Shown one piece after another: positions 13,262-33,621 of a stretch of 45,082 nucleotides of DNA. The stretch is from contig CANQEL010000020.1 of assembly GCA_947594855.1 (NCBI GenBank), positions 1-45,082 on the forward strand. The letters run 5' to 3'. Source of the stretch: an uncultured Lachnospiraceae bacterium (GTDB lineage: Bacteria > Bacillota > Clostridia > Lachnospirales > Lachnospiraceae). The position numbers and the translations under genes were made by a program. Below the pieces are notes generated by a model. It did not search any database. It was not told the DNA's origin and saw nothing but the letters and a program-made list of their open reading frames with translations. How positions within the stretch are numbered: the first letter of the stretch is position 1; the number at the start of each line of letters is the position of its first letter.

Positions 13262-13267
13262 CGAAAA

Positions 13268-14089: not shown

Positions 14090-14111
14090 ACGAGTCTCTC
14101 CTTACTGCTGC

Positions 14112-14131
14112 GCTGAGAGCCGCCTCTCAGC
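14112..14131 (-). other. Intercistronic stem-loop between backbone pilin and sortase C
   Basis: A perfect 8-bp stem (GCTGAGAG, then CTCTCAGC) with a four-base loop lies between the pilin stop and the sortase ribosome site. There is no T-run. It could protect the pilin 3' end or partly attenuate downstream expression, giving more pilin than sortase. Confidence 0.55.
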
Positions 14132-14159
14132 ACAACAGAATAATAATAAGATTAATTTA

Positions 14160-16442: not shown

Positions 16443-16480
16443 GTTAAAATCATCCCTTTCATTTATCGTTTTTGAATACC

Positions 16481-17020
16481 CTACTCCAATATTTCAGGAG
16501 TCGGCAGAATACGCATAAATAGCTTTCCTTTTATCTGTCCGCTGTCAACGAAACCGACCGCGGTATTACGTGAATCTATGGACACCCGTCTGTTGTCTCC
16601 TATCACAAAATAACTATCTTCGGGAACCTTCGCCGGATACATTACCGTGCTGCTGCCAAGACTCACGCTGTTCAGATATGGTTCATCAAGCTTCGCGCCG
16701 TTGATATAAACCGTGCCGTTTTCATCAATACTCACTTCTTCACCGCTCATGCCAACTACACGCTTGCATTGAATACTGCCATTAATCTGAAATATACAAA
16801 TGTCACCCCTTTCAAGTGATTTTGTTTTATATGCGATAACGATATCTCCGTCAAATAAAGTAGAACTCATGGTATTGCCGTAGATACGCATCACGGGAAA
16901 TATATTAATTACAAGGAGCAGGATGACAATTGCGGTAATTGCCGCGCTCGCCGCCACTGCTGCCATTATTTTTAAAAGCCTCTTCCTGCGGGTGTGCTTT
17001 TTTGGTTCTTCATCGCTCAT
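16481..17020 (-). CDS. Pilus-locus type I signal peptidase with Thr at the catalytic Ser position
   Basis: A 179-residue signal peptidase I homologue with a basic cytoplasmic start and one membrane helix (about 18-42). The usual box (G-x-S-M-x-P-T-L) reads GNTMSSTL, so the nucleophile position is Thr50 and the proline is Ser. The general-base lysine is kept (Lys86 in CKRVVG), and the GDNRRVSIDSR box is intact. Pilus-locus SipA-type homologues in streptococci are known to lose catalytic residues yet remain needed for pilus assembly, which suits a chaperone-like or altered-activity role. It lies just upstream of the backbone pilin, 38 bases away, in the same operon. Confidence 0.85.
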   Translation of the reverse strand: MSDEEPKKHTRRKRLLKIMAAVAASAAITAIVILLLVINIFPVMRIYGNTMSSTLFDGDIVIAYKTKSLERGDICIFQINGSIQCKRVVGMSGEEVSIDENGTVYINGAKLDEPYLNSVSLGSSTVMYPAKVPEDSYFVIGDNRRVSIDSRNTAVGFVDSGQIKGKLFMRILPTPEILE

Positions 17021-17062
17021 AGCATACCCCCTCCTAAGGTTTGTCGCGGCTCCGTCCTTTTC

Positions 17063-17275
17063 TTAAAACCACATACCCTTTATCCGGCACTGCCCCCCCT
17101 TGCCGGCTAACGCCGTAGCAAGTTCAAAGGCTCTGCCGCATCCCCGGCTCGATTCCCCGAAACCGGCAGACAGCATACCTCTCAACCCACAAAAAAATGT
17201 ATCAAAAACAATCGCAGGAACAATATACGCTGCGACAAATATTTTGATAAACATTTTTCTAATGAGTTTATTCAT
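17063..17275 (-). CDS. Small ORF with signal-peptide-like start, possible gene remnant
   Basis: A 70-codon frame with a good GCGAGGTG ribosome site. The first 25 residues form a typical signal peptide or membrane anchor (MNKLIRKMFIKIF then hydrophobic). The rest (Gly/Ser/Cys/Arg-rich) matches nothing I know and contains no pilin or sortase motif. The leader and first codons (GAGGTGTACATA..ATGAATAAA) closely resemble those of the tip-adhesin gene upstream. It may therefore be a decayed copy of a surface-protein 5' end, or a genuine small exported peptide. Confidence 0.35.
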   Translation of the reverse strand: MNKLIRKMFIKIFVAAYIVPAIVFDTFFCGLRGMLSAGFGESSRGCGRAFELATALAGKGGQCRIKGMWF

Positions 17276-17632
17276 TGTATGTACACCTCGCTTTTAACCA
17301 ACTTGTTAATATCAATCATCAAATCATAAGCAATATATAACACACAATACAAAATAATTTATATCATAAAAATCAAAAAACTGCAAGTATTTTAGAAAGA
17401 AACGAGTGGATTTTACTGTCGATTTATGCAGAGTTTACCCAGTAATTATTTGAACTTTATGATTTAATTATATTATTGTGCTGAAATCTTACCTTTATCC
17501 CAATAAAATACGCGGCAGGAAGCCTTTTTATCATTTGTAGGAAACCATAAATTTTTACAGAAAACAAAACAATAATTCGATAAAATATCGTTTGCACCGC
17601 ATTTTATAAACAATAGCATTGCGTAATAATTG
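17276..17632. other. AT-rich spacer after the tip adhesin
   Basis: About 350 bases between the adhesin stop and the small ORF. I see no convincing gene, terminator or consensus promoter. The one open frame here overlaps the end of the adhesin and has no ribosome site. Confidence 0.4.
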
Positions 17633-18772
17633 TTAGTTAATTCTCCTGCGCTTTCTGCGTTTGTAATATGACGCAATAACCGTCAGGGCAACCGCAACCG
17701 TCGCCACCGTGCCGAAGAAGATAAACTGGTCAACGCCGATTCCTCCGGCTGAAGGAAGCTCATACGGGAATTCATTCACAAAATCAACGTGCGAAGCCGG
17801 ATTCAGCTGAATGTTCGGACTCGTCGCATCGGCCCTCTCATATTCCCATTCGCCATCACCCAATCCGTGGGCATTGTTGTGCGGTGAGTAGAAAAGGTCG
17901 CTGTTTTCTTCTTCCTTTACCTGCCATGTGCCTTCGGGGAGGCCGTTGATCCTTACTTTCTCGTTGTGCTTTAAGTAAACTGTGGCGGTGTAGGTGCCGT
18001 CGCCGTCGGGGTCGCTGAAGTGGATCGTTGATGGGTAAAAGTCGGTACCAGTTGGCGGATAATCAGAACCCATCACAGAAGCATCCCTAATATCATCGCC
18101 TTGATACCATTTCAATTCGACTTCGCTTTTACCCGCAAAATCGACTGCATCTTCCGGCTTAAAGTTAACAGTAAATTCCCAGAATGTATCCGTTTTATAA
18201 TGGTCTGTATCATCATTGGTATTCGTGATCTTTTTTGAAATGGTAAGCGCATTATTGTCTCTTGACAACAAGATAATTCCAAGACGATCCTTGGCGTAAT
18301 CCTGTCCACGATTTATTACGTCATTTCTGTCATAACCTTTGGAGTTACTCTCTTTATTTGTACCAAAGCAGAAAGTTAATTCCTGCGTACTTACGTCCTC
18401 TGTCCTACTGCAATCTGCAATGTTTTTCGTGGCATTATCCTTCGAACCATTCCAGATAAGATACTCGCCGTCGCCTGTGCTTGTCGGCGCTGATTTGCTT
18501 TCACTATAAACGTCAGCCGGGAATTTGTCATAAGTGTAGCTTGTAGAGGCGTTGTCGAGTTTCAGGTATTTGAAATATACAGGGGCACCATCTTCTCCGA
18601 TATAATATTGACTGCTTGTGCCACTGTTCATATCATCATTATTTACTGAAATCACATATGTGCCAATTGGAAGGGCGTCCACCTTGGCATAACCGAGGTA
18701 TGAATTGGTTGTTGTAGCATCTTTATCAATATCTATATAATTACTTGGACTATCACTATCTTCCACTTCCAA
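17633..18772 (-). pseudogene. C-terminal part of the pilus tip adhesin, separated by a frameshift
   Basis: About 379 codons that lack any signal peptide or ribosome site and read on directly from the preceding 1984-residue frame after a one-base shift. They contain a SpaA/Cna_B-like domain (about 185-335: TFWEFTVNF, GTYTATVYLKHNEKV, GTWQVKEEENSD). A sorting signal of the variant form ELPSAGG (about 336-342) follows, then a membrane helix and a KRRKRRR tail. Without it the large adhesin would have no wall anchor. Removing one G from the GTTGGAAG at about 18764-18771 would join the frames as ...KLIKVEVEDSD. It is either a true frameshift, a sequencing error, or less likely a programmed shift. 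Confidence 0.75.
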
Positions 18773-21700
18773 CTTTAATTAGTTTCGCCCAAACCGTGTA
18801 AAGTACATCGGGTTTTGCTTCTTTAGGTAGAGAACTCTCATCAACTGTGAATGTCAGCCGATAATTTTTGCCTTCTACTTTGCCAGTTGATGTGTCTGCT
18901 TTTCCCGTATCTGCATTCTTCGTTTCCCTATCACCATAAGGCAATGGGTCAATCGGATCATCATAGTAGCGAGTAGCTTCAAAGATGTATTTTTTGTCTG
19001 ATGTCATGATTGGTGAACCGTCTTGCAAATACTTTCCATCAACAACCAATTCCAACGCAAGCGCGCCATTAACAACATCTTTGACATAAGTGGTGTTGGC
19101 TACAAGGGAACACGCCTCACCTTTTCCTTCAATCAGATTGCCTGTTTCATCAGTGACAACTTCACCATTGACATCGACTAATTGAACGTTTTTCGGTGTG
19201 CCTGTATAGTAGTCTTTAATGTTCTCATTTTCTATCTGCTCGGTCCCCGCAGTTTTCTTGTAGTCACTATCCCAGTCATAAACGCCTTTGTCGGTAAGTT
19301 TATTTTCTTCTACTGCATTACTTGTTTGTCCTGTCGTATCTTCTTTTTTGTAATACTCAATCGCATTTTCAGGTGCAAAATCTGAACTAGGCGTATTTTT
19401 ATCTACAAGCACCCACTTGTTATTTTTTTTATCATACATAATATGCGGCTCGTAGGTTTTTTCCTCCTTTACCATAGCTCTCAGATACTCTGCACGCCCA
19501 TCTATGCTCCATTCACTAACATCTGTATCATTAAATTCACCATTCTTAACATTAAAGAATTTGTCACCGACTCCAGAACCGCTGCTAGTGGTAATGAAAT
19601 GATTATCTAACACAAAACCTTTTAATTTCTCTTTATCATCCTTTAGTGGTGTAAACTTCAATTGCAAATTGTATTTGATCTGTTCTGCATTCTTAACAAC
19701 ATATTCTCTAGTGATATCGTATTTATCATCTGTATAGCCTTCCATTTTCTGCTGTTCTTCCTGAGGATCCTCGCGTTTCCAAGTATAGGTGATAAATCCG
19801 GTAACATCACGAAGATTTAAATCGTTAAAAGCTTCTCCTTCGCTTAATCCGGAGTCCAATCCTGCACTGTTTTCAATAACAACTTTATCATCTTCCGTTG
19901 TTACAAGCTTACCATTATTATACTTCGGATCAGGCAAGTATATATAAGGGATGGTAAATGTTTTTTCTGCTTCCGCTTCTATATTGATTTTCAGCCACCG
20001 ATTCAGAAGTTCAATCAACGGCATTTGATCAGCTTTCGCGCCATACACCCTATACGCATACCGTTCTAAATACTCCAGATAATACGAACCGGTCATGTAA
20101 CCGTTTTCAAGGTCAGCAAGCATCATCGTCGGCGAAATCACTTCGCCCATATAGATCACATCGTTCAAATCTTTTGCATCAAGCGGTTTCAATCTAACGT
20201 CCACAACTACCCTTGGGAATCCGGAAGAAGGAATGTCGATTCCGTTGCCGTAAACCGCCTGTGAAACGCCGCCGGCATCAACCGCATTGATCTTTCGATT
20301 CGTGCCGGAAAGAGCTTCAAGTTTTTTGCGGTAAGGGATTTTTTTACTGGTGGTATCTAAATCGTCATCTTTAAAACCATATAATTTATAATTCTCGCCT
20401 TTATCCATGTTTTGAATAGTTGCTTCGCTGAATACAAGGTTTTCGCCCGCCTCGTTTCCATTGGTAAGAATGTCGTTTCCACCGATGAAATCGTCCTTTG
20501 CTTTCAATCGTATAGTTGCGCTCCAGACATTAAGTTCTTTGCCATCTTTGCTTGTATCAAATGTTTTATTTTCCATCGGTATGATCTGATCTGTCCAACG
20601 CAGATAATACATATCCTTTACATCGTCGTAGTAGATATAACCTGTACCAACACCGTCACCATCGGTGTAGCCGCCTCCACTTTTTGCACTTCGGTTCACC
20701 ATGTAATTTTTTTGTGGTATGTATTCAAGACCAAGATTTTTGCATTCAGCTTCTGTTATATCTGGATCGTCATTTATTTTTTTAATTACATTGCCAACTT
20801 TTGCAGACTCTGTTTCCCCGCTAGTTTTTTTGACTGTAATGTTGCCGCCTGCGCCAAGCTGGTACAAATTTCCGGCCTTGTCAACAAGGTTAAACCGCGG
20901 GTCAATGTAGTCTTGTACTGTGTAGTCATTACGCGGCTGCTGAATCTGTGTCAGAATCTGCTGAAATGCTTCAACAGTAGTATTTCCCTTACTTGATGGG
21001 TCTGCAACAATGACATATTTTTCAAATTCAGCTATTCGCTCTTTCAATTCATCTATTATTTTAGGATCTGTTGCGTCTGCTTCCGCATTTTTTAACTGTT
21101 GCTTTAAATCAGCTAACTCTTTGTCTGCCTCTGTACTTCCGGCAAGTGTTGTCAGGAAATCATGCGCTTTATCATATTCCTCCTTATTTGCCGTTTGAGA
21201 AATAGAACCAGTTGCCATCATAACGCAATAAATCGTATAACCTTCTTCTTTGAGTTTATCTGCCCATGCTTTGGCTAATTGTGAATCCGTTCCTAGAGTT
21301 CTTTGTTTCCCTTCACTATCAGTTGGCGCATAATTACCAACATTGTCTTCATCTACATATTTTTTACTGCTTGTATCACCAACAAGATTATCTCGACCAT
21401 CTGTAAATATGATCAGATACTTATCACGAGCATCATTAGCGATATCATAAACTCTGTCGCCGCTTCCCTTCTTTTCTGTATCTACCATATTATCATAGAA
21501 CGATTTCAAACCCGTCCATGTGTATGTACCTCCAGTCATAACATATGGATATTCTTTAATCTTTTGAGCGAGCGATGTAGTAGTATTCGTAGATGTTTCA
21601 CCCAGTTCCGGCACTAGGAGATTATTCAGGAAATCCTTATATTCCGGGTTTGTACTACGATTCTCCTGATAAAATTCCGACCAGTTCGTCCAATCCTGCA

Positions 21701-24700
21701 TTACAAGCATATCAAAATTCTCATTATTCGCTACATTATTTGTACTGTAACGAACAATTGCAGAATTCGTAAGATCAGAGTTTTGAGCCAATGCCGTATA
21801 GAACTGATTCAAAGCATAATTCAGTTGCTCATATTTAGTTGCATTGCCCTCACGGGAGCCATCAGGTTTTTCAACATACTGTTGTTTTTGGTACACAACG
21901 GAGCAGAAAGTACGGGGATTATAGTTCCATGTTGATCCTGATTTTTTCCATGATAAATCACCTGTACAGTAGAAGCAACGCAAATAACCCTGACTATCAA
22001 CATAAAACTGAATACTGCGTTCATTCTCCGAGCGTTCAAACGTTTTGCTTTCATCATTTCTTGCAACAAGCGATTCATAAAGCTCATGATAACGTTCTGC
22101 TTCTTTTTCACCCATTTCATCTAAGATTTTACGTTCTTCGTCAGTAAGCGTCCCCGCTTTCTCTTTTTCAATTAATGAATAACCTGTTACCCAACTACTC
22201 GGAGCAGTGGCAATGCTTTTATTATCGTTTTCTATATTTTCCTTTTTTACGCTGCCATCTACCTTATTAGTCGTTTTCTTACCCTCAAGTTGCTCTGCAG
22301 TAGGAATTACACCGAGAAATTCATCATTAACAATGCCTAAATATTGCTTACCACTTTCAAGACATCCGCTTATATCAGTCCATGCAGAGTGAGAGTTTAC
22401 ATAGTACCAACCACAGCGTTGGTCAGGCACCGGATTGTCATGCAAACTTGCAGTTACCTGTGCAATTTCCATACTCTCACCGTCAATGACAGATTTAGCG
22501 TGATAAATAGCTTTATCAATCGTACCATTTTCTTTATATGTTGTAGCATCGCAAAGTTCTTTTCCAAAGTAAATGTTTACTTCGCTAGCTGTTAAGGATT
22601 TATCGAAAACATAGAGGTCATCAATAAAGATATCTGCGCCATTATATTTATCTTTCAACCCAGCAATAATGATTTTTATGGTATCGGCTTTCAATTCGGT
22701 AATATCTCCGGAATATTTCTCCGTATCCGGCTTTCCGTCTTTATATGCATAAACTTTATCATTATCAACTACAAATGTAACATAGCACCATTCTGTATTC
22801 TCAAGAGCCGAGTTTATATGAGCAGCATCATTAGTGCCACTCTCGTTCTTATCAAAAAAACGCAAATGGCGGTCATCGTTTATTCCATCTGTATCCGTTT
22901 TCCAGTTTCGTGCTATATGGTAATAATCATTGTTTGATAAATTATTATCGCCAACATACATTATTTCAGCAACATTATCAAATTTTTTATGGTCATCATT
23001 CTCTTTTTTTATTGCAAATGAAATAGTAAAATTACTCTTATCTTTCGGAACAGCATCAAGCAAAACAGAGCCAAGTTTAGATGTTTTAGTTACATTTAAG
23101 GAATGCTCTCCGTTTTTATGTTCCGTTGAATAGGTTGGAGTTGCAGGGTCGGTGCTAATAAGAGGAGTATCAACAAACCCACTACCTGATGATGGCTGCG
23201 GTATATATGTAAGCCTACTGTTACCACTAACATTATTTACTAGGCTGTCAAATGAATCATCAAAATTATAATACGCAGTAACATTTTTATAGAACGAAAG
23301 ATCTGTAGGCGTTTTAATCTTTTTATTGCTGTTTAACTCTTCAAGCTCATCATTATTCAAAGCTTTATTAAAGACGCACACATCTGTCATCCATGTTTTA
23401 TCAGGAACTTTCAAAGTTCCGCCTTTAACATTTCCTCCTAAAATGATTTTATAATCACTGGGCAAGAAACTATAAGACGTTTTTGATGCAGTGGCATGTG
23501 TTTCTTCATCAGAATATACTAATTTTAATGTTTGTAAATCAGCATCATATACTATACTTAAATTGACCCATCTGTTTTTTCCAAAAACATGCTTGCTCTC
23601 AGTTAATTTATTTGAGCTTGTAGGCATATTTGACGTTGCTTCTTCATCTATCAACTCAACTTTTCTTATTTCTTTAGCACCACTTTTTTGACGCTGTAAC
23701 TGAATATAATCAGTACCCTCCATATTTCCAATGTATACCAACGGAAGTTCATCATAGCCACTTTTATCTCCATCCACTTCTGATTTTACACGTACAGAAA
23801 TCGTAAAACTTTCAGTACAATTTACATCTGATAGTAACGCTCCTTGATTAATCATTTGAGATATAATTAAATCACCAGAAGAAATTGGGGGCTCAATTAT
23901 TTGTGTTGGTTGTGTTTCATCAAAAATATTACCGTTATCCGCAGCATGTTTTATATATTTTGCTTCCTTGCCCGATAGAGCCGAATTCGCCAATGAATTT
24001 TCAAACGGATAATATCCAATCAAGTTCGCATCATCTATAGGTTTGGAAAGATCTTGCCCTCCATCCCAATATCCAAGTGGCACGAACTCCGAAACAGAAG
24101 AACGGGATTCGTATATATAATACATATAATCACTGTAGGAGAGCTTGCTGTTATCGGTGTTCTTTGGGTTTAAAATCAGATCAACAACATCCTGCGGAAG
24201 GTAGCCGTCTTCTTTCTTTTGGATTGCAGCTAATAATGTTGTTGTTTCATCTTTATAAGAAGAAAATTCTTCTAAATCATCAGAGGTAATTTCATATTTG
24301 CTTTGCAGTTCATTAATCACATCTTTCGTCAAAGAAATTTCAAGCGGATCAAGCGTATCCACCGTCCACGCCATAGAGCCGGAAGCATCAAGAATCGTCG
24401 CAACGTCCACCGGGTTCTCGCCTACATACCAAGACTCCAGATTGACGTCAAAAGTTCTGCCATCTGTTGTGCCATCTGCAACCCTGGCTGTCTTGTTCGT
24501 ATGTAATCCGTAGCCTGTGTTGTAATTGTCTCCCTCTGTATCCTGTTCAAGATTCGAAAATCCCGTTGATTTACCATTTTTGCCTTTTGAGCCGCTGTCG
24601 GCATATGATGTTTTCATAAAAGAATTTGTAAACGTGCCAACTCCGACCGCAGACACAAACATCACCGCCGCCGATACACCGGCGATTATTCTCTTTGCTG

Positions 24701-24710
24701 TTTTATTCAT
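18756..24710 (-). CDS. Giant pilus tip adhesin, N-terminal part (VWA domain with LamG-like insertion)
   Basis: A 1984-residue exported protein, the first gene of the pilus operon. A signal peptide covers about 1-37. A von Willebrand A domain begins with the MIDAS sequence DASGS (about 108-112), but its later parts, GGTYTWTGL (about 1061) and LIIFTDGRD (about 1100-1107), come nearly 1000 residues later. Two concanavalin/LamG-like lectin modules lie in between, at about 230-460 and 478-715. Each starts with a YYPFENS- or YYNFDDS-like strand and ends with a VFNKAL- or VFDKSL-like strand. After the VWA come several beta-rich domains of RrgA-like tip pilins. It stops at 18756 with no sorting signal because of a frameshift. 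I chose the ATG at 24710 because AAAGGGG lies ten bases upstream. Confidence 0.85.
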   Translation of the reverse strand: MNKTAKRIIAGVSAAVMFVSAVGVGTFTNSFMKTSYADSGSKGKNGKSTGFSNLEQDTEGDNYNTGYGLHTNKTARVADGTTDGRTFDVNLESWYVGENPVDVATILDASGSMAWTVDTLDPLEISLTKDVINELQSKYEITSDDLEEFSSYKDETTTLLAAIQKKEDGYLPQDVVDLILNPKNTDNSKLSYSDYMYYIYESRSSVSEFVPLGYWDGGQDLSKPIDDANLIGYYPFENSLANSALSGKEAKYIKHAADNGNIFDETQPTQIIEPPISSGDLIISQMINQGALLSDVNCTESFTISVRVKSEVDGDKSGYDELPLVYIGNMEGTDYIQLQRQKSGAKEIRKVELIDEEATSNMPTSSNKLTESKHVFGKNRWVNLSIVYDADLQTLKLVYSDEETHATASKTSYSFLPSDYKIILGGNVKGGTLKVPDKTWMTDVCVFNKALNNDELEELNSNKKIKTPTDLSFYKNVTAYYNFDDSFDSLVNNVSGNSRLTYIPQPSSGSGFVDTPLISTDPATPTYSTEHKNGEHSLNVTKTSKLGSVLLDAVPKDKSNFTISFAIKKENDDHKKFDNVAEIMYVGDNNLSNNDYYHIARNWKTDTDGINDDRHLRFFDKNESGTNDAAHINSALENTEWCYVTFVVDNDKVYAYKDGKPDTEKYSGDITELKADTIKIIIAGLKDKYNGADIFIDDLYVFDKSLTASEVNIYFGKELCDATTYKENGTIDKAIYHAKSVIDGESMEIAQVTASLHDNPVPDQRCGWYYVNSHSAWTDISGCLESGKQYLGIVNDEFLGVIPTAEQLEGKKTTNKVDGSVKKENIENDNKSIATAPSSWVTGYSLIEKEKAGTLTDEERKILDEMGEKEAERYHELYESLVARNDESKTFERSENERSIQFYVDSQGYLRCFYCTGDLSWKKSGSTWNYNPRTFCSVVYQKQQYVEKPDGSREGNATKYEQLNYALNQFYTALAQNSDLTNSAIVRYSTNNVANNENFDMLVMQDWTNWSEFYQENRSTNPEYKDFLNNLLVPELGETSTNTTTSLAQKIKEYPYVMTGGTYTWTGLKSFYDNMVDTEKKGSGDRVYDIANDARDKYLIIFTDGRDNLVGDTSSKKYVDEDNVGNYAPTDSEGKQRTLGTDSQLAKAWADKLKEEGYTIYCVMMATGSISQTANKEEYDKAHDFLTTLAGSTEADKELADLKQQLKNAEADATDPKIIDELKERIAEFEKYVIVADPSSKGNTTVEAFQQILTQIQQPRNDYTVQDYIDPRFNLVDKAGNLYQLGAGGNITVKKTSGETESAKVGNVIKKINDDPDITEAECKNLGLEYIPQKNYMVNRSAKSGGGYTDGDGVGTGYIYYDDVKDMYYLRWTDQIIPMENKTFDTSKDGKELNVWSATIRLKAKDDFIGGNDILTNGNEAGENLVFSEATIQNMDKGENYKLYGFKDDDLDTTSKKIPYRKKLEALSGTNRKINAVDAGGVSQAVYGNGIDIPSSGFPRVVVDVRLKPLDAKDLNDVIYMGEVISPTMMLADLENGYMTGSYYLEYLERYAYRVYGAKADQMPLIELLNRWLKINIEAEAEKTFTIPYIYLPDPKYNNGKLVTTEDDKVVIENSAGLDSGLSEGEAFNDLNLRDVTGFITYTWKREDPQEEQQKMEGYTDDKYDITREYVVKNAEQIKYNLQLKFTPLKDDKEKLKGFVLDNHFITTSSGSGVGDKFFNVKNGEFNDTDVSEWSIDGRAEYLRAMVKEEKTYEPHIMYDKKNNKWVLVDKNTPSSDFAPENAIEYYKKEDTTGQTSNAVEENKLTDKGVYDWDSDYKKTAGTEQIENENIKDYYTGTPKNVQLVDVNGEVVTDETGNLIEGKGEACSLVANTTYVKDVVNGALALELVVDGKYLQDGSPIMTSDKKYIFEATRYYDDPIDPLPYGDRETKNADTGKADTSTGKVEGKNYRLTFTVDESSLPKEAKPDVLYTVWAKLIKVGSGR

Positions 24711-24761
24711 AATATGCACACCCCTTTACAAGAAATTGCATTATGTATTTATTTTCGCTAT

Positions 24762-24791
24762 ATATAATCAGGATTTATCTCACTATTTCAA
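24762..24791 (-). promoter_or_regulatory. Probable promoter of the pilus operon
   Basis: Minus strand: TTGAAA (24786-24791), an 18-base spacer and TTATAT (24762-24767), about 52 bases before the tip-adhesin ATG. The match is moderate and the region is AT-rich, so other starts are possible. Confidence 0.4.
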
Positions 24792-24820
24792 TTATTTAGT
24801 AAGATTAGTAAGTATTTCAC

Positions 24821-24830
24821 TTTCGCGAAA
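24821..24830. promoter_or_regulatory. Palindromic possible operator upstream of the pilus promoter
   Basis: TTTCGCGAAA is a perfect 10-bp palindrome about 30 bases upstream of the proposed -35. CG-rich centres are rare in this AT-rich spacer. No regulator gene is adjacent, so the binding protein is unknown. Confidence 0.3.
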
Positions 24831-25187
24831 CAAGATAATTTAAGAATGGGCTCTTACATTGAGCAGATTCTATATATAATAGAGTTATAGCACAAATTGT
24901 ATGAAAATTCAAGCCGTATAAACTTTCAGTTTACGTAATTTTATCTGCAGTCATCTCTTTTAAGTATAATTTTAAAAACATCTTCCAAAAAGTCCCAAAA
25001 TATGGGGAAATTCTCTCCTTTTTTATACTAAAATTGCCCTGCCCGGACCGCAAAAACGCCTGTCGTCCCGTAATTCATTCGCATACACCCATTTCCCTAC
25101 AAATGCCATCGCTCCCGGTCTTATTGCTGCACACGCAGCGCGGATTTTTATTAATACAAAAATTTTTCAATTAGCAGTAAAAACTTC
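24831..25187. other. Divergent intergenic spacer
   Basis: Separates the pilus operon from the Rpn nuclease gene. I see no gene. The right part (about 25030-25145) is less AT-rich and may be the remnant of something, but no frame there is convincing. Confidence 0.35.
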
Positions 25188-25216
25188 TTGCATTACGTAA
25201 AATAGTGTGTTACAAT
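25188..25216 (+). promoter_or_regulatory. Sigma-A promoter of the Rpn nuclease gene
   Basis: TTGCAT, a 17-base spacer and TACAAT. It also rules out the in-frame ATG at 25205 as the start, because that ATG lies inside the promoter. The same promoter is repeated before the partial copy downstream. Confidence 0.65.
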
Positions 25217-25276
25217 AAGTGCATAAAGAATTTATGCACGGGATTCCCCAATTTCAAATATGAGGGGGCTGGTGTA

Positions 25277-26212
25277 TTGGCGGAAGAAAACAAAGACGAA
25301 AATAATACGAATGAAGAAGATAAGAAAAAGGCTTTTCAGGAACTTACAATAAAAGATAATTTTATGTTTACTGCCGTGATGTCAGACAAGGAGAACTGCC
25401 GCAGGCTGTTAGGTATGGCGCTTGGTTTCCCGGTAAAGGTTGTTTCTGTGGATTATGAGTACAGCATAATGTATAATCCGGATTACAAGGGGATACGTCT
25501 GGATGTGCTTGCAGTTGACGACGGAGGTTCGCAGTATAATGTTGAAATCCAGACAGTAAACCGAAAGATTGAAAAGAGGAGCAGGTACTATCACAGCCAG
25601 CTTGACATGAAGTTGCTTGGAAGTGGAAAAGAATATCGTATACTTCCGGATGCATATGTGATATTTATATGCGATTATGACCCTGTGGGCAGAAAAAAGT
25701 ATAAGTATACATTTGACCATATCTGCAGGGAAGTGCCCGGATATACGCTTGAAGACGGGAGCCATACGATATTTCTGAGTACCAGGGGTGAAAATGACGG
25801 CGAAGTACCGGAGGAACTTGTAAGATTCCTGAAATATGTTGCAGCAGACCTTGATGAAAGTCTGGAGGATTTTGAGGACGATTATGTAAGGAAGCTGCAG
25901 GAAAGTATTGTCGATATAAAAAAAGACAGAGGAATGGAGAGTGGATATATGCTGCTTGAAGAGATGTTAAACGATGAGAGAACTGCCGGAATAGAGAAAG
26001 GCAGAGCTATTGGCAGAGAAGAGGGCAGAAAAGCGATTGGGTCAGAATATATACTTGATTTGCTTTCAGACCTTGGCAGTGTATCTGATGATCTTAAGGA
26101 AAAGATCGAGTCTGAGGAGAACGAAATAACGCTTAAAGCCATGCACAGACTTGCAGCAAGGTCAGAATCCATTGAGATGTTTTTAAACGGGTTAAAGGAT
26201 ATGAATGATTAA
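25277..26212 (+). CDS. Rpn/PD-(D/E)XK nuclease-family transposase-like protein (full-length copy)
   Basis: 311 residues of the PDDEXK_2 (PF12784) / Rpn recombination-promoting nuclease family. The nuclease core shows Asp76 in GIRLDVLA and the E-x-Q pair Glu90/Gln92 in YNVEIQ. Residues about 225-311 form the charged helical C-terminus with the EKGRAIGREEGRK repeat typical of the family. The TTG start is chosen because GAGGGGG lies eight bases upstream. Members in E. coli are DNA endonucleases with anti-phage toxicity, and an internal start there makes a C-terminal inhibitor. Here codon 225 is an ATG (25949) preceded by GGAG at nine bases, so an 87-residue short form is plausible. Confidence 0.87.
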   Translation: MAEENKDENNTNEEDKKKAFQELTIKDNFMFTAVMSDKENCRRLLGMALGFPVKVVSVDYEYSIMYNPDYKGIRLDVLAVDDGGSQYNVEIQTVNRKIEKRSRYYHSQLDMKLLGSGKEYRILPDAYVIFICDYDPVGRKKYKYTFDHICREVPGYTLEDGSHTIFLSTRGENDGEVPEELVRFLKYVAADLDESLEDFEDDYVRKLQESIVDIKKDRGMESGYMLLEEMLNDERTAGIEKGRAIGREEGRKAIGSEYILDLLSDLGSVSDDLKEKIESEENEITLKAMHRLAARSESIEMFLNGLKDMND

Positions 26213-26245
26213 TTAAAAATCTTTGTGTTTTCGGTATTTTCAGAT

Positions 26246-26263
26246 AAGGCACAGCTGTGCCTT
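26246..26263. repeat. Palindrome after the Rpn gene (copy 1)
   Basis: AAGGCACAGCTGTGCCTT is a perfect 18-bp palindrome 33 bases after the stop and is followed by TCAG. It may act as a weak terminator. A second hairpin, GACCG-TAT-CGGTC, follows. Both are repeated after the partial copy. Confidence 0.5.
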
Positions 26264-26329
26264 TCAGAGTAACGCGGACCGTATCGGTCGAAACTAAAAT
26301 GACTTACAGGGGAATTCTGTGTAAAATTC

Positions 26330-26358
26330 TTGCATTACAAATTGATATGTGTTACAAT
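26330..26358 (+). promoter_or_regulatory. Promoter of the stand-alone Rpn C-terminal ORF
   Basis: TTGCAT, a 17-base spacer and TACAAT, duplicating the promoter of the full-length gene with identical boxes although the spacer sequence has diverged. Confidence 0.65.
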
Positions 26359-26405
26359 AATTATATGAAGAATTTATACAATACAGAGGAATGGAGGGTG
26401 GATAT

Positions 26406-26669
26406 ATGCTGCTTGAAGAGATGTTGAACGATGAAAGGACTGCCGGAATAGAGAAAGGCAGGACAGAGGGCATTGCCATTGGCAGAAAAGAAAGCAGGAC
26501 AGAAGATATATTGGATCTGCTTTCAGACCTTGGCAGTGTATCCGATGATCTTAAGGCAAAGATTAAGTCCGAGGATAGTGAGATAACGCTTAAAGTCATG
26601 CACAGACTTGCAGCAAGGTCAGAATCCATTGAGATGTTTTTAAACGGGTTAAAGGATATGAATGATTAA
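26406..26669 (+). CDS. Stand-alone Rpn C-terminal protein, candidate nuclease inhibitor
   Basis: 87 residues that correspond to the last 87 residues of the full-length Rpn protein upstream, with no nuclease domain. The ATG is preceded by GGAGGG at seven bases, a better ribosome site than the GGAGAG at the same place inside the full-length gene. An ATG at 26391 is also in frame but too close to its own upstream site. The frame is intact, and the differences from copy 1 are concentrated in the EKGR repeat region, with the last 20 residues identical. Rpn loci in E. coli express such a C-terminal short form as an intragenic antitoxin. Here it may have become a separate gene. Simple decay of a duplicate is the alternative. 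Confidence 0.6.
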   Translation: MLLEEMLNDERTAGIEKGRTEGIAIGRKESRTEDILDLLSDLGSVSDDLKAKIKSEDSEITLKVMHRLAARSESIEMFLNGLKDMND

Positions 26670-26704
26670 TTAAAAATCTTTGTGTTTTCGGTATTTTCAG
26701 ATAG

Positions 26705-26718
26705 GGCACAGCTGTGCC
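26705..26718. repeat. Palindrome after the Rpn C-terminal ORF (copy 2)
   Basis: GGCACAGCTGTGCC, the second copy of the palindrome found after the full-length gene, followed by TTTCAG. Weak terminator at best. Confidence 0.5.
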
Positions 26719-26877
26719 TTTCAGGGTAACGTGGACCATATCGGTCGCAGTCAGAATGATGATTTACAGAAACTTCTTTATAAAAAATATCCTTTCTTAT
26801 AAGAAAAATTTTATCATATTTTTTATTGATATGAGCTTAGATAATTTGAGCAGAAGATGTATTCTCCCTCCGATCAA

Positions 26878-26908
26878 ATATAGTTTCATTACAGGAATGA
26901 AACTATAT
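26878..26908. other. Stem-loop in AT-rich spacer
   Basis: A perfect 13-bp inverted repeat (ATATAGTTTCATT, then AATGAAACTATAT) around a five-base loop, not followed by a T-run. It marks the left part of the gene-poor 26.7-27.4 kb spacer, in which I find no convincing gene. Confidence 0.45.
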
Positions 26909-27108
26909 CCCAACCTCCATTAGGAGTATATTTCACTTTAGTGTGTGTTTACTCATATCTCTTACTATGGATAAATTCATCAAATTTTAATTCTTGATAC
27001 TATTTTGTCTGGGGGATTATATAATGTTGCCCAAACATCTCATAAGTTCCCTAAAACATTGTATTTTGTATAAAATATAATATATAATATAAAATCAAAA
27101 CTTTCTAT

Positions 27109-27157
27109 TTGCTCGCACTATAGAATTAGAACATGCTCATTGACTTATAGCGAGCAA
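27109..27157 (+). terminator. Possible terminator-like inverted repeat
   Basis: TTGCTCGC and GCGAGCAA (8 bp, extended by CTATA/TATA after a two-base bulge) enclose about 33 bases and are followed by GATGTTTTTCTTT. The large loop makes a simple intrinsic terminator doubtful. Confidence 0.3.
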
Positions 27158-27396
27158 GATGTTTTTCTTTATTGAATTTGTTGTCTGCCGTTCTTGACTT
27201 TTACATATAAAAATTTCTTTCTATAATGTATGTACCTCATTATTAGTATAGAATGCGACATATAAAAACCAGAAAACGGGCTTTTTAATCATGTCTTTCA
27301 AGACGTAATTGTTGATACGTTGCTATATTTTTTATCATCTTGCATATTTTAGTTCCCCACTTTGACATAAGTGTTTTTATGCCCTTTACAGTGCAA

Positions 27397-30105
27397 CTAA
27401 TCCTGTTTAAGCAAAACATCCCAATATTCCTGCATTTCTTTTTCTACGCAGTTAAATACGCTTTCTATGCTATTAAAATCCAACAGTGTCTTTATTGTAC
27501 GCCTTATTTTAGCAATCCCCTCTTTTTTTTCAAGAAAATCATATTTTAATAGAAACTCTTTCGTGACATGCAAGAGATAGCTGTACAAATCGCATAAAAC
27601 AAAATTGTAATCCTCCAAAGAAAAATATTTTTCATATTTTTCGTCATCATTTGTCATCAATTCAGTATCATCGCTAAAACTGATATGCTCGTCAATGTCG
27701 TTCTTGTATGTTTTTGAGATTTGTTGAATTTCATTCAACAAATCTACAATAATATTAGATTTTTCAACCTCGGCACAGGCCTCATCTACGTTTTTAAGCA
27801 GATTATTAATTTCATCTGACAGTCTTTCATCATTAAACTTAAGTTTATCAGTTTCCCAAAAGCCACATGCAGTCATGATTTTAAAAATAATACCCACACG
27901 GATAGCATCAGCTAAATTACATAGCAGGTTATCGAGAGAAACTCCTATTTTTTGTATAAACATGCTCAAGTAATCATATGGATTGACTGCCAAAACAAGA
28001 AGCATCTGCAGATCAGCATATGTTTCACGATAAATAGATTCAAGTAATTCTATAAAAAGTTTATAGTTACGTACATTTTCGTCATCATGGAGATGATCCA
28101 ATTTGTTAGATATCTCTTGACTTTTTTGCCTGCTATATTGTTCTTTGTAATAAATTCGATATTTTTGCTGATCATTTTGATTTATCAATCCAATTTGTTC
28201 CAAACCGTGGTCATAACAATTTTCGCTTCTAGTTTCTGTAACACTTTCCATTAAATATTCCGACAGTTTGTCGGAAGAATCTGTATCTAGCTCTTTAACG
28301 AATGAAATGCTGTCTTGTTGAAATTTAATAAAATAATTGAAATATTCATTGCACATTTCATCCATTGCATATTTTTTCAATTGCATTACAATATCTCTGT
28401 CGTTAATATCACACATAACAGCAATGAACTCTATTAATGAATTTATAACGCTCTGTTTCCTCTGTCTCCTACATCTTATTTCTTCGCCAATATAATGAGC
28501 CAATTCATGAATAAGCTGATAAGATACTACAGCAACATCGTAAAGTGTTTTTTCAGAAATCGATATCATTAAAATCCGTTCACATGGCGGCTCATCATTT
28601 GGTGAAATCATCTCGATGGACATTATAGGCGAAAAACTAGGGCATATGAAATAAGTAAATTCACCAATATTACCCTTATCACAAAGCAATTTTTTCATGT
28701 TATAAATGTATGCATTGTAAAATGCTAAAATCTTAGGAGGTATTGAGTAAAAAATTGCATTAAATGCTGTCGCCTGAACGAATTGTCTTTCATTATGCAT
28801 TGTGCTATTAACTATAGTATTTAATGCTGTAAAATACTGATTATAACAATAAGTAATTTCTTCTTCAATCTTAACTCTTTCATTTTCCTCATACGAAGCA
28901 AGAGTTTCGAATTTCTTAGTCATATATTTGATAAAATTAAGAAAAGATTCGTATACGCAGTAAACCAACTCTTCTGCAAAATTATTTTTTACAATACTGC
29001 AGATACAATCTCGAACTTCGTAAACAGGAAACATAAACCCACGCGCATCTGTCAATTCTGCATCTTCAATGCTATTTTTTAATTCCGAAATTCTCTCTTT
29101 TAATTTTGTACATATTTTATCATATTGTTTTTTCCTTTTATTATAAGTTTTGTCTTTTGATTTTCTAATTGTTTCATTGTGTGAATTTTTATTTGTTTCT
29201 TCCTGTGGATGAAAAATATTTGTCTTTATATATGTCTCAAATGTCCAAAACAATCTTTGGTTATTTTGATTATGCAGTTCTTGCATAATCTCCAATAACC
29301 ATTTTGTGTCGGCTTCATCTTTTATCAAGGAAATATCATGCCTTCCAAACATTTGACTTTTTTTAATGTTTTCATTGAAACAAGAAGAGTGATTGCTCAT
29401 CATATTAAAACCGTGACAATCATGGATGCTGAGATTAATGGTAGCACTGAAATTGTCATTACCATTATCATTTTGTAAATTTTGATTTTTTGCATTGATC
29501 GCATATTTGGGATAAAAACTTGCCAAAGAAAATGTATCAAAAATAACATCTTTTTTATATGGAACATTATCAAAAAGCTTTTGTATATTATACAAATACT
29601 GGGTCATATTTGTATTTTTTGCAAATAAAACAATGTCACAGTAATCAAATGAAATATATGCTAAATAATCCTTTTGAAATATTGTATTAATACCTTTCAA
29701 TGCCTTTTTTAAATTTCCAATATGGTTTATATGTATCATAGATAGAAACAAATATGGGCTGCTAGTATCGTTCCAAAAGCCATTTATTTGTTCTTTCGTA
29801 AATGAAGCCCCTGTATCATTTGGTTTGTCACATATGTCAATAAAAAGAAGTTGTTCTTGAGAACTAAAATCCACAAGACCAACCTTTTCTTTTTCTTTCC
29901 ATTCAACCATAGTCTTATATCCGCCAATAAAAGGATGCTCATCCCCGTATTTTTCTGATAATCCCTTAATTTGAACGGCATCAAAGTATCCTATCGCTAC
30001 GTAGCTTTGAATATCTGTGTCATTTTCTATATTTTCAAGTGAGACAGTTTTGGGAACATACCACTTGTTTAATTTTAATGCTCTTATGTCAATATTATGT
30101 TTCAT
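27397..30105 (-). CDS. Large cytoplasmic protein with HExxH zinc-peptidase motif, function unknown
   Basis: A 902-residue protein with no signal peptide or membrane helix. The central sequence YQLIHELAHYIGEE (HELAH at 533-537) is a zincin motif. A possible third ligand is Glu694 or Asp698 in YRETYADLQ, as in gluzincins. The first 210 or so residues alternate predicted strands and helices and do not match a family I know. Residues about 300-350 are strongly basic. The last 200 are helical and acidic. The ATG has AGGAGAG five bases upstream. It follows a 54-codon ORF and a DisA_N-like gene on the same strand, and base composition is very AT-rich. I infer a protease-like effector controlled by, or sensing with, the DAC-like partner. 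Substrate is unknown. Confidence 0.7.
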   Translation of the reverse strand: MKHNIDIRALKLNKWYVPKTVSLENIENDTDIQSYVAIGYFDAVQIKGLSEKYGDEHPFIGGYKTMVEWKEKEKVGLVDFSSQEQLLFIDICDKPNDTGASFTKEQINGFWNDTSSPYLFLSMIHINHIGNLKKALKGINTIFQKDYLAYISFDYCDIVLFAKNTNMTQYLYNIQKLFDNVPYKKDVIFDTFSLASFYPKYAINAKNQNLQNDNGNDNFSATINLSIHDCHGFNMMSNHSSCFNENIKKSQMFGRHDISLIKDEADTKWLLEIMQELHNQNNQRLFWTFETYIKTNIFHPQEETNKNSHNETIRKSKDKTYNKRKKQYDKICTKLKERISELKNSIEDAELTDARGFMFPVYEVRDCICSIVKNNFAEELVYCVYESFLNFIKYMTKKFETLASYEENERVKIEEEITYCYNQYFTALNTIVNSTMHNERQFVQATAFNAIFYSIPPKILAFYNAYIYNMKKLLCDKGNIGEFTYFICPSFSPIMSIEMISPNDEPPCERILMISISEKTLYDVAVVSYQLIHELAHYIGEEIRCRRQRKQSVINSLIEFIAVMCDINDRDIVMQLKKYAMDEMCNEYFNYFIKFQQDSISFVKELDTDSSDKLSEYLMESVTETRSENCYDHGLEQIGLINQNDQQKYRIYYKEQYSRQKSQEISNKLDHLHDDENVRNYKLFIELLESIYRETYADLQMLLVLAVNPYDYLSMFIQKIGVSLDNLLCNLADAIRVGIIFKIMTACGFWETDKLKFNDERLSDEINNLLKNVDEACAEVEKSNIIVDLLNEIQQISKTYKNDIDEHISFSDDTELMTNDDEKYEKYFSLEDYNFVLCDLYSYLLHVTKEFLLKYDFLEKKEGIAKIRRTIKTLLDFNSIESVFNCVEKEMQEYWDVLLKQD

Positions 30106-30146
30106 ATACTCTCCTGTATACAGATATTAAGCAATCTATCAAATGC

Positions 30147-30311
30147 TTAATTTTTTATTCTATGAACCTTGATCATATCAATCAAAGGGGAATAATCGCT
30201 TTTGTTTCTTTTGTGATAAGAACTGTTATTAGGCAATTTAGATTTGTTAAACTGCTCTGCCGCTGCCCAGCAACTCCTGTTCTTTGTATCCTTAGTCCCT
30301 GTTAATACCAT
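30147..30311 (-). CDS. Small 54-residue ORF between the DAC-like and HExxH genes
   Basis: Starts MVLTGTKDTKNRSCWAAAEQ and ends KVHRIKN. It is basic, soluble and unrelated to anything I recognise. It is supported by a perfect AGGAGG nine bases before the ATG and by a TTGACA promoter just upstream. The stop is 41 bases before the HExxH gene start, with a short hairpin (ATTAAGCA/TGCTTAAT) between. It may be a leader peptide, an accessory protein or a substrate/inhibitor of the peptidase-like protein. Its conservation in related loci would decide whether it is a real gene. Confidence 0.5.
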   Translation of the reverse strand: MVLTGTKDTKNRSCWAAAEQFNKSKLPNNSSYHKRNKSDYSPLIDMIKVHRIKN

Positions 30312-30344
30312 AAAACTATTCCTCCTAAAAAAAGTCCAAGTAAT

Positions 30345-30373
30345 ATGTTATCATATAATCTGCACGTTGTCAA
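30345..30373 (-). promoter_or_regulatory. Promoter for the small ORF and HExxH gene
   Basis: Minus strand: TTGACA (30368-30373), a 17-base spacer and TAACAT (30345-30350). It begins six bases after the DAC-like gene's stop, so the downstream pair can be expressed separately from the DAC-like gene. Confidence 0.5.
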
Positions 30374-30379
30374 GATTAT

Positions 30380-31732
30380 TTAATCAGGAATAAGCAGTTT
30401 TACATCCCCATCTTCGGAGACTATGAATATAAGCCCTTTTATTCCTTCGCTTTTTAAATAATTACAGTATTTGTATGCCGAATTATGCCGTGCTCCTTTT
30501 GCAATATCGCCGTTGGTATTAGTGTCTCCATCCAATATCATTCCAATTCCATAAACAACGCAATTTACATCCAAAATAATGCTACCGTCTATTGCGCTTA
30601 AATGAAAAATATCTAATGTAGATTTGGAATAATTGTTGATTATACCAAACCCTCTATCAGCAAGTCTTTCCGCCTCTTTACGAGCATCTTCTTCAGATAA
30701 TACCACAAGCATAGTCCCATGGGTTTGCTTCTTGGCTTCATTAATAGCTATGATTACTTTATTATAATTTTCTGTGTTGCAAAATGTTTTTTGACAAATT
30801 TCCTTCAAATATTCATTTGGGATTTGATATCTTATTCTATGGTTTCCATTACGATAAGAAAATATGTATGTGTTGCCAACAAACATGTCGAAATCCATGT
30901 GTTGCTTTATTTTGACGTTTAAATATGGTATTTTTTCTCCCTTTGCTTCAAGACGACGTAAAAATTTTTTATACGAACAAATTCCTGTCGCATAAAAATT
31001 CTCACTGCTATCTTCATGAAATAGCAAACAAAGATCATCCTGTGCAATCTGTGATAATTTTCTAATTACCCTTAGGTTCTCAAATGACAACGTCATTTTT
31101 ATTTGATCCTCTTTACGAAAGCCATATGAAAAAATTTCAGAGTATTTCTTTATGATGTCAATAGAACGTGGAATGAAAATCAAGTTAGCTTTGCAGCCAG
31201 TTTTTTCATAATATTCCCCCGAAAGACTGGTAATATATGCAAATCTAATAGGAGCATAAAAGTGTTCTATGCAATGGCATGTTTCTTTATATGCCCTGTT
31301 TAATACAAGCACGGCAAATGAATTGACATTGTCTATTTTTTCTACACTAATTCCAACTAAAGCGTTCTGTTTCAGTTTTCTATACCAATCTTGCATTGAA
31401 GCAAGCATTTCTCTAAAAACCATTGTCAGCAATAATCTACCATAATTATTTTCAAAACAAGGAGATACACAGGCGCAACAAAACATAAATAAAGATTCAT
31501 TGATATACAACTTATTGGTATCGTATACATATTGATACTCTGTATAGTTGTTATTTAGTATTTTTTTGAAAGTATCATTAGTTTCATAATCATAATTTTC
31601 CGAGTTATAACTATAACCATCCTTATCATTGCCATCATATACAAAATATGGTTGCTCCGAATCGTTTATGTCTTTATAAATGAATACTAATTTTGTCTCA
31701 TTACAAATCCATTCCTCTGTAAAAAGTTGCAT
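30380..31732 (-). CDS. Protein with C-terminal diadenylate-cyclase (DisA_N)-like domain
   Basis: A 450-residue soluble protein. Residues 1 to about 320 are unrecognised. The C-terminal region, about 320-450, looks like a DAC/DisA_N fold: HGTMLVVLSEEDARKEAERL, then IDGS (Asp382-Gly383-Ser384), GIGMILDG and GARHNSA (413-419). In known c-di-AMP synthases the matching motifs are DGA and RHR, so this protein keeps Asp-Gly and Arg-His but has Ser and Asn variants. It may be an active cyclase, a cyclase with another product, or a nucleotide sensor. It differs from housekeeping CdaA, having no membrane helices. The start is uncertain: the ATG has no ribosome site, and a TTG lies six codons upstream. 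Confidence 0.7.
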   Translation of the reverse strand: MQLFTEEWICNETKLVFIYKDINDSEQPYFVYDGNDKDGYSYNSENYDYETNDTFKKILNNNYTEYQYVYDTNKLYINESLFMFCCACVSPCFENNYGRLLLTMVFREMLASMQDWYRKLKQNALVGISVEKIDNVNSFAVLVLNRAYKETCHCIEHFYAPIRFAYITSLSGEYYEKTGCKANLIFIPRSIDIIKKYSEIFSYGFRKEDQIKMTLSFENLRVIRKLSQIAQDDLCLLFHEDSSENFYATGICSYKKFLRRLEAKGEKIPYLNVKIKQHMDFDMFVGNTYIFSYRNGNHRIRYQIPNEYLKEICQKTFCNTENYNKVIIAINEAKKQTHGTMLVVLSEEDARKEAERLADRGFGIINNYSKSTLDIFHLSAIDGSIILDVNCVVYGIGMILDGDTNTNGDIAKGARHNSAYKYCNYLKSEGIKGLIFIVSEDGDVKLLIPD

Positions 31733-32213
31733 TTTAATATTTTTAAACAATAAATTGATTTGGTCAAAAATTTGTTGTAAATATAAGGAGTCCGTCTTTT
31801 ATTCACCCTCCAAGTCATATGTATAATATTTTTATTTATGTGGCAACAATCGTTATTTGATGCGTTTTATCACCTTTTTATTCACAATATTCAGTAATGA
31901 TGTCACAAATAAATATTCAATATATTATATTATTATATATTAAAAATATACATTTTTCTACATATATTTTTATTTTTTTACTATTAAGTACGAAAAATGA
32001 TACTATTGATAGGAGACAAGGCTTGTATGATACTATAGAATTTGTGTGATTTTATAGCAGAAAATTTTAAGCATTTTCGCGGGCTATCGAAGATAAAGAA
32101 AGGATGTATGGAGGGGTACATTTCAGCCCTTATAACCTTATAAAAAAGTTTCGTATTTTATCCCTTTAAAATAACATCATAATCTGTAAATTTGTAATGA
32201 ATCCGACTTATCC
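31733..32213. other. Very AT-rich spacer with short direct repeats
   Basis: About 480 bases between the DAC-like gene and the MATE promoter. It contains two copies of ATGATACTAT (31997-32006 and 32027-32036), start to start 30 bases apart, which could be operator sites. I see no convincing gene. A 40-odd-codon frame overlapping the DAC-like start (ATG in TATGACTTGGAGGGTG) is too weak to call. Confidence 0.35.
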
Positions 32214-32242
32214 TTGACATCCGGCATACTCTAATTTATTAT
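32214..32242 (+). promoter_or_regulatory. Sigma-A promoter of the MATE transporter gene
   Basis: TTGACA, a 17-base spacer and TATTAT, 38 bases before the ATG. A near-consensus match. Confidence 0.7.
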
Positions 32243-32280
32243 TTTATAAGCAACATTATAACAGAAAGAAGACATGCAAA

Positions 32281-33621
32281 ATGAAACGCTCAAATATAGA
32301 TATGCTGCATGGAGGCATTGCCGGCAAACTCCTTTTATTCGCGCTGCCGCTTGCTGCTACAGGTATGCTCCAACAATTGTTTAACGCCGCAGATGTAGCG
32401 GTTGTAGGCCGGTTCGCAGGTAAAAATGCAATGGCTGCCGTAGGAAGCAACAGTCCGGTCATAGGACTCCTTGTAAACGGTTTCGTCGGCATATCTCTTG
32501 GCGCCAATGTTGTCATATCCAGATTCACGGGACAGGATAATAAAGATGGAATCTCCAAAACCGTACATACTTCTGTTCTCTTTTCTGTCCTTGGAGGTCT
32601 GTTCATTACATTGCTTGGTGAACTGGTTGCTCCGCTTATCCTGAATCTCCTTTCAGTGCCTGCTGAGGTATTCCCAATGGCTTTAGCGTACCTGCGCATA
32701 TACCTTCTCGGACTTCCGGTAATCTTTCTGTACAATTTTGAATCGGCAATATTCCGAAGCCAGGGCGATACCCGCACCCCGCTTATATGTCTTGTAATCT
32801 CAGGTATAATCAATGTGATACTGAATCTGTTTTTCGTATGTATAGTCGGAATGACGGCAGACGGCGTAGCTCTCGCAACAGTAATCTCTAACGCTGTCAG
32901 TGCGCTGTTACTGTTTATTCTGCTGTGCCGCAGAAACGATTATATCAAAATTACAGTTTCCAAAATAAAAATTCATTCAAACGTACTTAAGTCGATGATA
33001 AAGATTGGGCTGCCCGCAGGACTTCAGGGCATGGTATTTTCTCTGTCCAATCTGTGCATACAGTCGGCGGTAAACAGCCTTGGCGCAGATGTAATGGCTG
33101 CTTCTTCAGCCGCTTTCAATATAGAGATTCTTGCCTATTATGTAATCAATTCCTTCGGACAGGCATGTACAACTTTTGTCGGCCAGAATTACGGTGCGGA
33201 AAATATCGGGCGCTGCCGAAGGGTTGCGCGCATAAGCCTGATAATGGATATTGGGATAACAGCGGCTGCATCGCTTATTATGCTTGCTTTCGGAACCAGG
33301 CTCCTTGGAATATTTAACAGCGATCCTGCTATAGCTTCTATAGGAATCGTAAGGCTCAGATTCATTCTTGCGGCAGAAGTGGTAAATGCAGTTATGGAAG
33401 TTATGTCCGGCGCAATGAGAGGTTACGGATATTCCGTCGTTCCCGCGGTAATTACCTTTATAGGAGTATGCGGAGTCCGCATCGTATGGGTATACAGTAT
33501 ATTTAAAGTCTCACAGACATTCTTCACGCTTATGATGGTATATCCTGTAAGCTGGATAATAACTGCCGCTGCGCTTACAATTGCCTATATGCGGTTTATG
33601 CGGAGGTTTCTTCCGACATAA
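32281..33621 (+). CDS. MATE family efflux transporter
   Basis: A 446-residue, 12-helix transporter of the multidrug and toxin extrusion family, exporting cationic compounds by Na+ or H+ antiport. The N-terminal FALPLAATGMLQQLFNAADV and GRFAGKNAMAAVG segments, and the matching second-half LPAGLQGMVFSLSN, are typical of the DinF/NorM-like clostridial branch. Length is normal. The substrate cannot be predicted. The ribosome site is weak (GAAAGAAG). It has its own promoter, and its 3' end overlaps the convergent DUF1934 gene by 26 bases. Confidence 0.93.
   Translation: MKRSNIDMLHGGIAGKLLLFALPLAATGMLQQLFNAADVAVVGRFAGKNAMAAVGSNSPVIGLLVNGFVGISLGANVVISRFTGQDNKDGISKTVHTSVLFSVLGGLFITLLGELVAPLILNLLSVPAEVFPMALAYLRIYLLGLPVIFLYNFESAIFRSQGDTRTPLICLVISGIINVILNLFFVCIVGMTADGVALATVISNAVSALLLFILLCRRNDYIKITVSKIKIHSNVLKSMIKIGLPAGLQGMVFSLSNLCIQSAVNSLGADVMAASSAAFNIEILAYYVINSFGQACTTFVGQNYGAENIGRCRRVARISLIMDIGITAAASLIMLAFGTRLLGIFNSDPAIASIGIVRLRFILAAEVVNAVMEVMSGAMRGYGYSVVPAVITFIGVCGVRIVWVYSIFKVSQTFFTLMMVYPVSWIITAAALTIAYMRFMRRFLPT

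Follow-up and report, generated by a model that had tools for sequence, protein, structure and literature searches.

What would a diadenylate cyclase (DAC), a frame of 54 residues and a large protein with a zinc-peptidase motif do together in an uncultured Lachnospiraceae bacterium? According to the open reading frame (ORF) listing, the genes lie on the minus strand in the order DAC, SM54 and BIG, as we call them here, within a 45,082-nt stretch of contig CANQEL010000020.1 (GCA_947594855.1), hereafter the window. A sequence-only reading of this DNA had compared the trio to nucleotide-based conflict systems, with the cyclase signaling and the protease as effector. Our own answer is different in its emphasis: BIG and a variable neighbor, here a soluble DAC of the type known from the defense system DS-2, may together make up a mobile, modular conflict system, most likely directed against phages. 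We give this reading a probability of about 45%.

The element common to all loci that we compared, which come from gut-type bacteria, is BIG. The central HELAH, which the sequence-only reading had singled out, turned out to be a family trait, as HExxH and then ExxxD, the latter presumably a gluzincin feature, are kept in 23/23 BIG proteins (the matching ExxxD was chosen by eye among pattern hits in each protein, and is aligned in 15 rows). In an alignment of 15 rows, the sequences share 15–44% identity with that of the window, and the invariant columns include G39, D42, G254, E518, H533, E534, H537, E694 and D698. The AlphaFold model has a predicted local distance difference test (pLDDT) value of 73; in the prediction, three strands are followed by a helix that carries HExxH and, farther on, by one that carries ExxxD, an order compatible with a zincin, and fold searches give ferredoxin-like matches for the N-terminal region. 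BIG is a predicted gluzincin-type zinc metallopeptidase. No library that we used gives it a name, in agreement with the earlier description of its 902 residues as otherwise unrecognized, and Pfam yields no match over cut-off for BIG or SM54.

The 23 loci (numbered with L, genomes with G) stem from overlapping BIG searches and form a non-random set, most of them from the window's own family. Not counted among the 23 are duplicates (L033 of L012, L036 of L013, L042 and L058 of L034) and a stop-containing fragment in G588 (L022/L027); in L014, L017 and L026 the BIG gene is incomplete or split, and its pieces were read separately and left unjoined. A match in G991 (L041, 1.1e-4) was discarded when a profile search at E 1 gave no confirmation.

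The gene next to BIG differs between these loci. A full DAC adjoins it in 12 of the 23 and a DAC-like gene lacking the cyclase domain in two more, the near-identical L028 and L030, so that the pairing of the two large genes, on which the sequence-only reading depended, does recur in other genomes. Three loci have a SIR2_2 protein instead (Pfam: L018, 6e-17; L024, 4e-15; L040, 3e-16), two of which (L018, L024) are also matched by the PADLOC ThsA/SIR2 models, and four have a multi-transmembrane (TM) protein with 3 to 5 TM segments by hydropathy (L014, L015, L017, L062); none of these SIR2 and TM loci has a DAC-profile match in the fetched stretch. Consequently, the set contains BIG both with and without a cyclase neighbor. 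In the tree of BIG proteins, the three SIR2-linked members form one clade (99/98), and the DAC label requires no fewer than three changes; L028/L030, which were labeled apart, account for one of these and L016/L060, which group with a TM-linked BIG (96/94), for another; owing to long branches, the deep joins of this tree are unsure. BIG is accompanied by outputs familiar from other conflict systems, and of more than one kind, a pattern in keeping with a sensor-protease whose effectors can be exchanged.

Where the neighbor is of DAC type, the gap between the two genes ranges from -35 to 364 nt. The DAC and BIG distance matrices correlate with r 0.90, a value reached by 0/9999 permutations (12 loci), which fits joint inheritance and is by itself no proof of function. 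From the DAC side, a search of 215 family genomes found a DAC-profile match in four, three of which have an adjoining BIG, the fourth match being a stray one. In L012, a SLATT_5 gene with two TM segments (12117–12773, above the NCBIfam cut-off) shares 4 nt with the end of BIG, making a three-gene DAC-BIG-SLATT operon possible.

The C-terminal domain of the window DAC, assigned as DAC-like in the sequence-only reading, is matched by Pfam PF02457 (7.4e-9; 35.7 bits vs a cut-off of 27) and, by fold, by DisA/CdaA; the same reading was right in seeing no membrane helix, as judged by hydropathy. The NCBIfam model NF053872 (DS2_3_antiphage) matches with 2e-37 over residues 159–453, a span that takes in ~170 residues ahead of the Pfam DAC match, at 128.8 bits, below its equivalog cut-off of 630. 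All six full DACs tried match this model (2e-30 to 1e-45; among them those of L059, L060, L016 and L061 with 1e-39 to 2e-30 and that of L012 with 1e-45), and the cut-down L028 protein does not. As a control, the housekeeping cyclase of the window genome, a CdaA (248 bits vs a cut-off of 188.8), gives no hit with the DS-2 model, even at a threshold of E 10. Since the full DACs match and CdaA does not, we regard the window DAC as specifically kin to the DS-2 type, yet not as a member of DS-2. Of the two active-site motifs, DGA and RHR, the first reads DG[AS] in 12/12 full DACs; the second is R[HYF]N in 12/12, as against RHR in CdaA. A Citrobacter plasmid found via the window DAC has the DS-2 layout, and its DAC, which scores 803.8 bits and exceeds the cut-off of 630, carries the same variant loop (GSRYN). 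Further window-related DACs lie on plasmids of Priestia (3), Dyadobacter, Gluconobacter and Phycisphaera (L063–L069, with Citrobacter), some of them near nucleotidyltransferase, phospholipase or restriction genes.

DS-2 consists of a phospholipase, a cGAS-like cyclase and a DAC; its defense was abolished when either of two predicted catalytic residues of the DAC was mutated, and 15 of 30 DAC homologues adjoined a cyclic oligonucleotide-based anti-phage signaling system (CBASS) (PMC13092281). The paper sees in DS-2, there combined with CBASS, the first validated case of phage defense that uses a diadenylate cyclase. Our locus shares with DS-2 the soluble DAC, the related upstream region and the variant loop. 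It differs in having no cGAS-like cyclase or phospholipase, either among the 17 window proteins run against Pfam or as a same-strand neighbor (these being SM54 and BIG), and in the partner of its DAC, a metallopeptidase-like protein. From CdaA and DisA, with which it has the fold of the catalytic domain in common, the window DAC is set apart by the lack of a membrane helix, the lack of a DisA C-terminal domain (Pfam) and RHN instead of RHR.

Table 1 Features of the DAC-SM54-BIG locus and its surroundings in the window
Feature	Position	Strand	Description
DAC protein, 456 aa	30380..31750	-	N-terminal part 1-~310, DS2_3-like from ~159; diadenylate-cyclase domain ~311-456
DAC motifs	IDGS at residue 387, GARHN at residue 419		C-terminal domain of the 456-aa protein
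DAC-SM54 intergenic stretch	30312..30379	-	promoter-like TTGACA, 17 nt, TAACAT (30373-30345); AGGAGG before SM54
SM54, 54 aa	30147..30311	-	small conserved gene with [DN]-Y-S motif near the C-terminus
BIG, 902 aa	27397..30105	-	predicted gluzincin-type metallopeptidase; HExxH 533-537, ExxxD 694-698
BIG regions	residues ~1-300; middle and C-terminus		ferredoxin-like N-terminal region; remainder helical
Accessory stretch	10281..33595	.	pilus/adhesin genes, PDDEXK gene, DAC-SM54-BIG, MATE

The DAC gene (Table 1) has two candidate starts (window 31732–31810), TTG at 31750 or ATG at 31732. The in-frame stretch upstream still resembles the relatives by eye, with a Shine-Dalgarno-like GGAGGG farther up.

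How such a system might work can be outlined as follows. BIG would be a cytosolic protein. Its N-terminal region, of a ligand-binding type, would sense an infection cue or a metabolite, whereupon the zincin site would cleave and release the partner, here the DAC. Once released, the DAC would make a nucleotide, probably cyclic di-AMP (c-di-AMP), that might harm or alarm the cell via a pore or another effector; in the relatives, the output would be loss of NAD+ (SIR2) or membrane damage (TM protein). SM54, which lies between DAC and BIG in one branch only, could be an inhibitor of BIG or a peptide substrate.

The reverse order, towards which the sequence-only reading leaned, would make the DAC both sensor and signal maker, its nucleotide binding the ferredoxin-like N-terminal region of BIG and thereby switching on a destructive protease. 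In line with this, the DAC-type gene leads in 12/14 loci (BIG is first in L016 and L060), Pfam detects DACNH, a "probable sensor domain", in the L012 DAC (2.2e-10; below cut-off in L016 and absent from the window DAC at E 1), and the fold type matched by the N-terminal region of BIG also occurs in c-di-AMP receptors, e.g., RCK_C and PII-like PstA. However, BIG keeps its motifs beside SIR2 (three loci) or TM proteins (four loci) with no DAC-profile match, which makes the cyclase look like one of several outputs, and a BIG that occurs without any cyclase renders a signaling DAC with an executing protease the weaker reading. Moreover, the cyclase domain is missing in L028/L030, one DAC-BIG pair is accompanied by another membrane-type output (SLATT), and some other trigger of BIG would be needed in the 9/23 loci without a DAC-type neighbor as well as in the two cyclase-less ones. 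We consider a DAC that activates BIG rather unlikely. Of the original proposal, the conflict role is supported, as it fits both the kinship to DS-2 and the SIR2, SLATT and TM partners; its sequence of cyclase signal and protease effector is unsupported as stated, though it may hold for the DAC form.

Several points weigh against a modular system of BIG and exchangeable partners. First, all 23 loci were collected via BIG, so its constancy within the set is there by construction, and the co-variation of DAC and BIG would also be expected from plain shared descent. Second, the partners do not always conform: L028/L030 have lost the cyclase domain and kept the rest, two loci of one genome (G324) have no recognized partner, DS-2-type DACs also occur with partners other than BIG, and no SLATT-like or other TM gene follows BIG in the window (ORF listing). 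Third, R[HYF]N in place of RHR leaves the product and activity of the DAC uncertain. Fourth, the fold searches returned no zincin match for BIG, their lists being filled by the N-terminal domain. Finally, only the DAC was judged defense-like among the 17 window proteins run against Pfam, PADLOC had no match for the BIG proteins (n=4) and DACs (n=2) tried, and no BIG match was found in phages, plasmids or viral contigs, unlike many defense genes. PADLOC likewise gave no match for the window proteins.

Judged by its sequence conservation, the 54-residue ORF is a real gene. A frame of 53–57 residues sits between DAC and BIG in 6/6 loci of one branch (the window, L028, L029, L030, L031 and L034), and a [DN]-Y-S motif near the C-terminus is common to the six copies, those of L028 and L030 being near-identical. 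With leave-one-lineage-out profiles, the held-out copy ranked first outside the training loci in 4/4 tests among 14,827 six-frame stretches (E of 7.5e-7 for the window, 0.069 for L028/L030, 0.0054 for L029 and 1.6e-4 for L031/L034). A promoter-like site and AGGAGG follow the DAC stop, so SM54 and BIG may be transcribed apart from the DAC; this site is weak evidence, since it is a consensus match only and a scan of the region gave 42 sites vs 35 expected.

A further explanation assigns SM54 the central part, in that BIG would cleave this fast-changing protein and the freed C-terminal peptide would serve as signal or toxin. Like the precursors of the VMAP/FtsH ternary conflict systems, for which peptide-processing units of a zincin and a small precursor have been proposed (PMC7159879), SM54 is a short, variable protein whose C-terminal part is better conserved; it also lies directly before the peptidase gene and after the promoter-like site. 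Those units are a genuine parallel for SM54, sharing a metallopeptidase gene that adjoins a short variable gene with a more conserved C-terminus; they differ in that the partners here are DAC, SIR2 or TM proteins and in the peptide motif. Yet SM54 is confined to 6/23 loci in one clade, a profile search of the other loci fetched by then being negative, and we regard this peptide-processing reading as improbable.

The setting of the locus is that of an accessory region, as in the sequence-only reading, which called the segment AT-rich and accessory. The GC content is 30.7% vs 39.8% in the rest of the window, and among 16 further BIG loci measured, 15 (all but L031) have less GC than their flanks. 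In G270, a genome of the same genus with no BIG match, the homologues of window 9750–10280 and 33596–34024 are direct neighbors, 97 bp apart (locus L085), which defines the 23 kb that separate them in the window (10281–33595) as accessory; this stretch is either an insertion in the window lineage or a loss in G270. MATE-type relatives are found elsewhere in G270, at 23–30% identity. In the same stretch lies a pilus/adhesin locus (window 14160–24719) that encodes a VWA/laminin-G protein of 1987 aa; the matching G270 site lacks this locus.

This company of surface genes would also suit a non-immune accessory role, with the trio, carried in a variable region, adjusting c-di-AMP as a regulator for stress or nutrient conditions; ferredoxin-like domains of ACT/RAM type, moreover, usually sense metabolites. 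Such a role is at odds with the SIR2_2, SLATT_5 and DS-2-type DAC partners, typical of conflict systems, with the presence of a separate housekeeping CdaA and with the patchy distribution of BIG, and we hold it to be quite unlikely. As to that distribution, relatives were found in 8/299 (protein query) and 13/397 (15-row profile) genomes of the family, 5/392 of the order (6-row profile), 3/391 of the class and 1/299 of the phylum, the last being the window's own, in samples that overlap and each include the window's own genome. Nine loci, titled Lachnospiraceae, Clostridium or Blautia, came from a scan of genome contigs.

Other known systems resemble parts of this arrangement. The SIR2 anti-phage NADases (Thoeris ThsA, DSR2) recall the SIR2_2 partner in three relatives, unlike which the window locus has no SIR2, and the partner gene of SIR2 is there BIG. 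With nuclease-protease pairs, as examples of protease-activated effectors, the general layout of a protease adjoining an effector is shared; these are reported to use a trypsin-like protease (PMC12799240), and cleavage by BIG is something we infer. None of the papers that turned up in our literature searches describes BIG or a DAC-metallopeptidase pair, in keeping with the sequence-only reading, which knew of no described system with just this pairing, though work on DAC architectures may mention it. If our interpretation of exchangeable partners is true, defense DACs would have a second setting, one free of CBASS, in which the partner is a metallopeptidase-like protein, and BIG would represent a new family of sensors linked to several killing mechanisms already known (SIR2 or membrane partners in relatives). 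Natural test cases for the role of defense DACs would be the cyclase-less loci and the loop variant R[HYF]N. More speculatively, and in our estimate with the odds clearly against it, BIG could be the core of an undescribed immune family, one sensor-metalloprotease with interchangeable outputs, whose DAC form gates a dedicated c-di-AMP-type alarm apart from housekeeping c-di-AMP and with no CBASS cyclase, SM54 acting as safety catch.

Some minor observations concern individual loci. In L028 (6734–7720) and L030 (6728–7720), the DAC gene keeps its N-terminal part, and SM54 and BIG remain. In L025, the gene of an AAA_35 protein whose tail weakly resembles PDDEXK (10172–11836) lies upstream of a BIG without known partner, with an integrase-like gene, recognized by eye, nearby, and two recombinase-like genes, also named by eye, precede the DAC-BIG pair of L061. 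In the window itself, the plus-strand stretch 25205–26669 holds a PDDEXK_2 transposase-family gene and, behind it, its C-terminal part once more (26391–26669).

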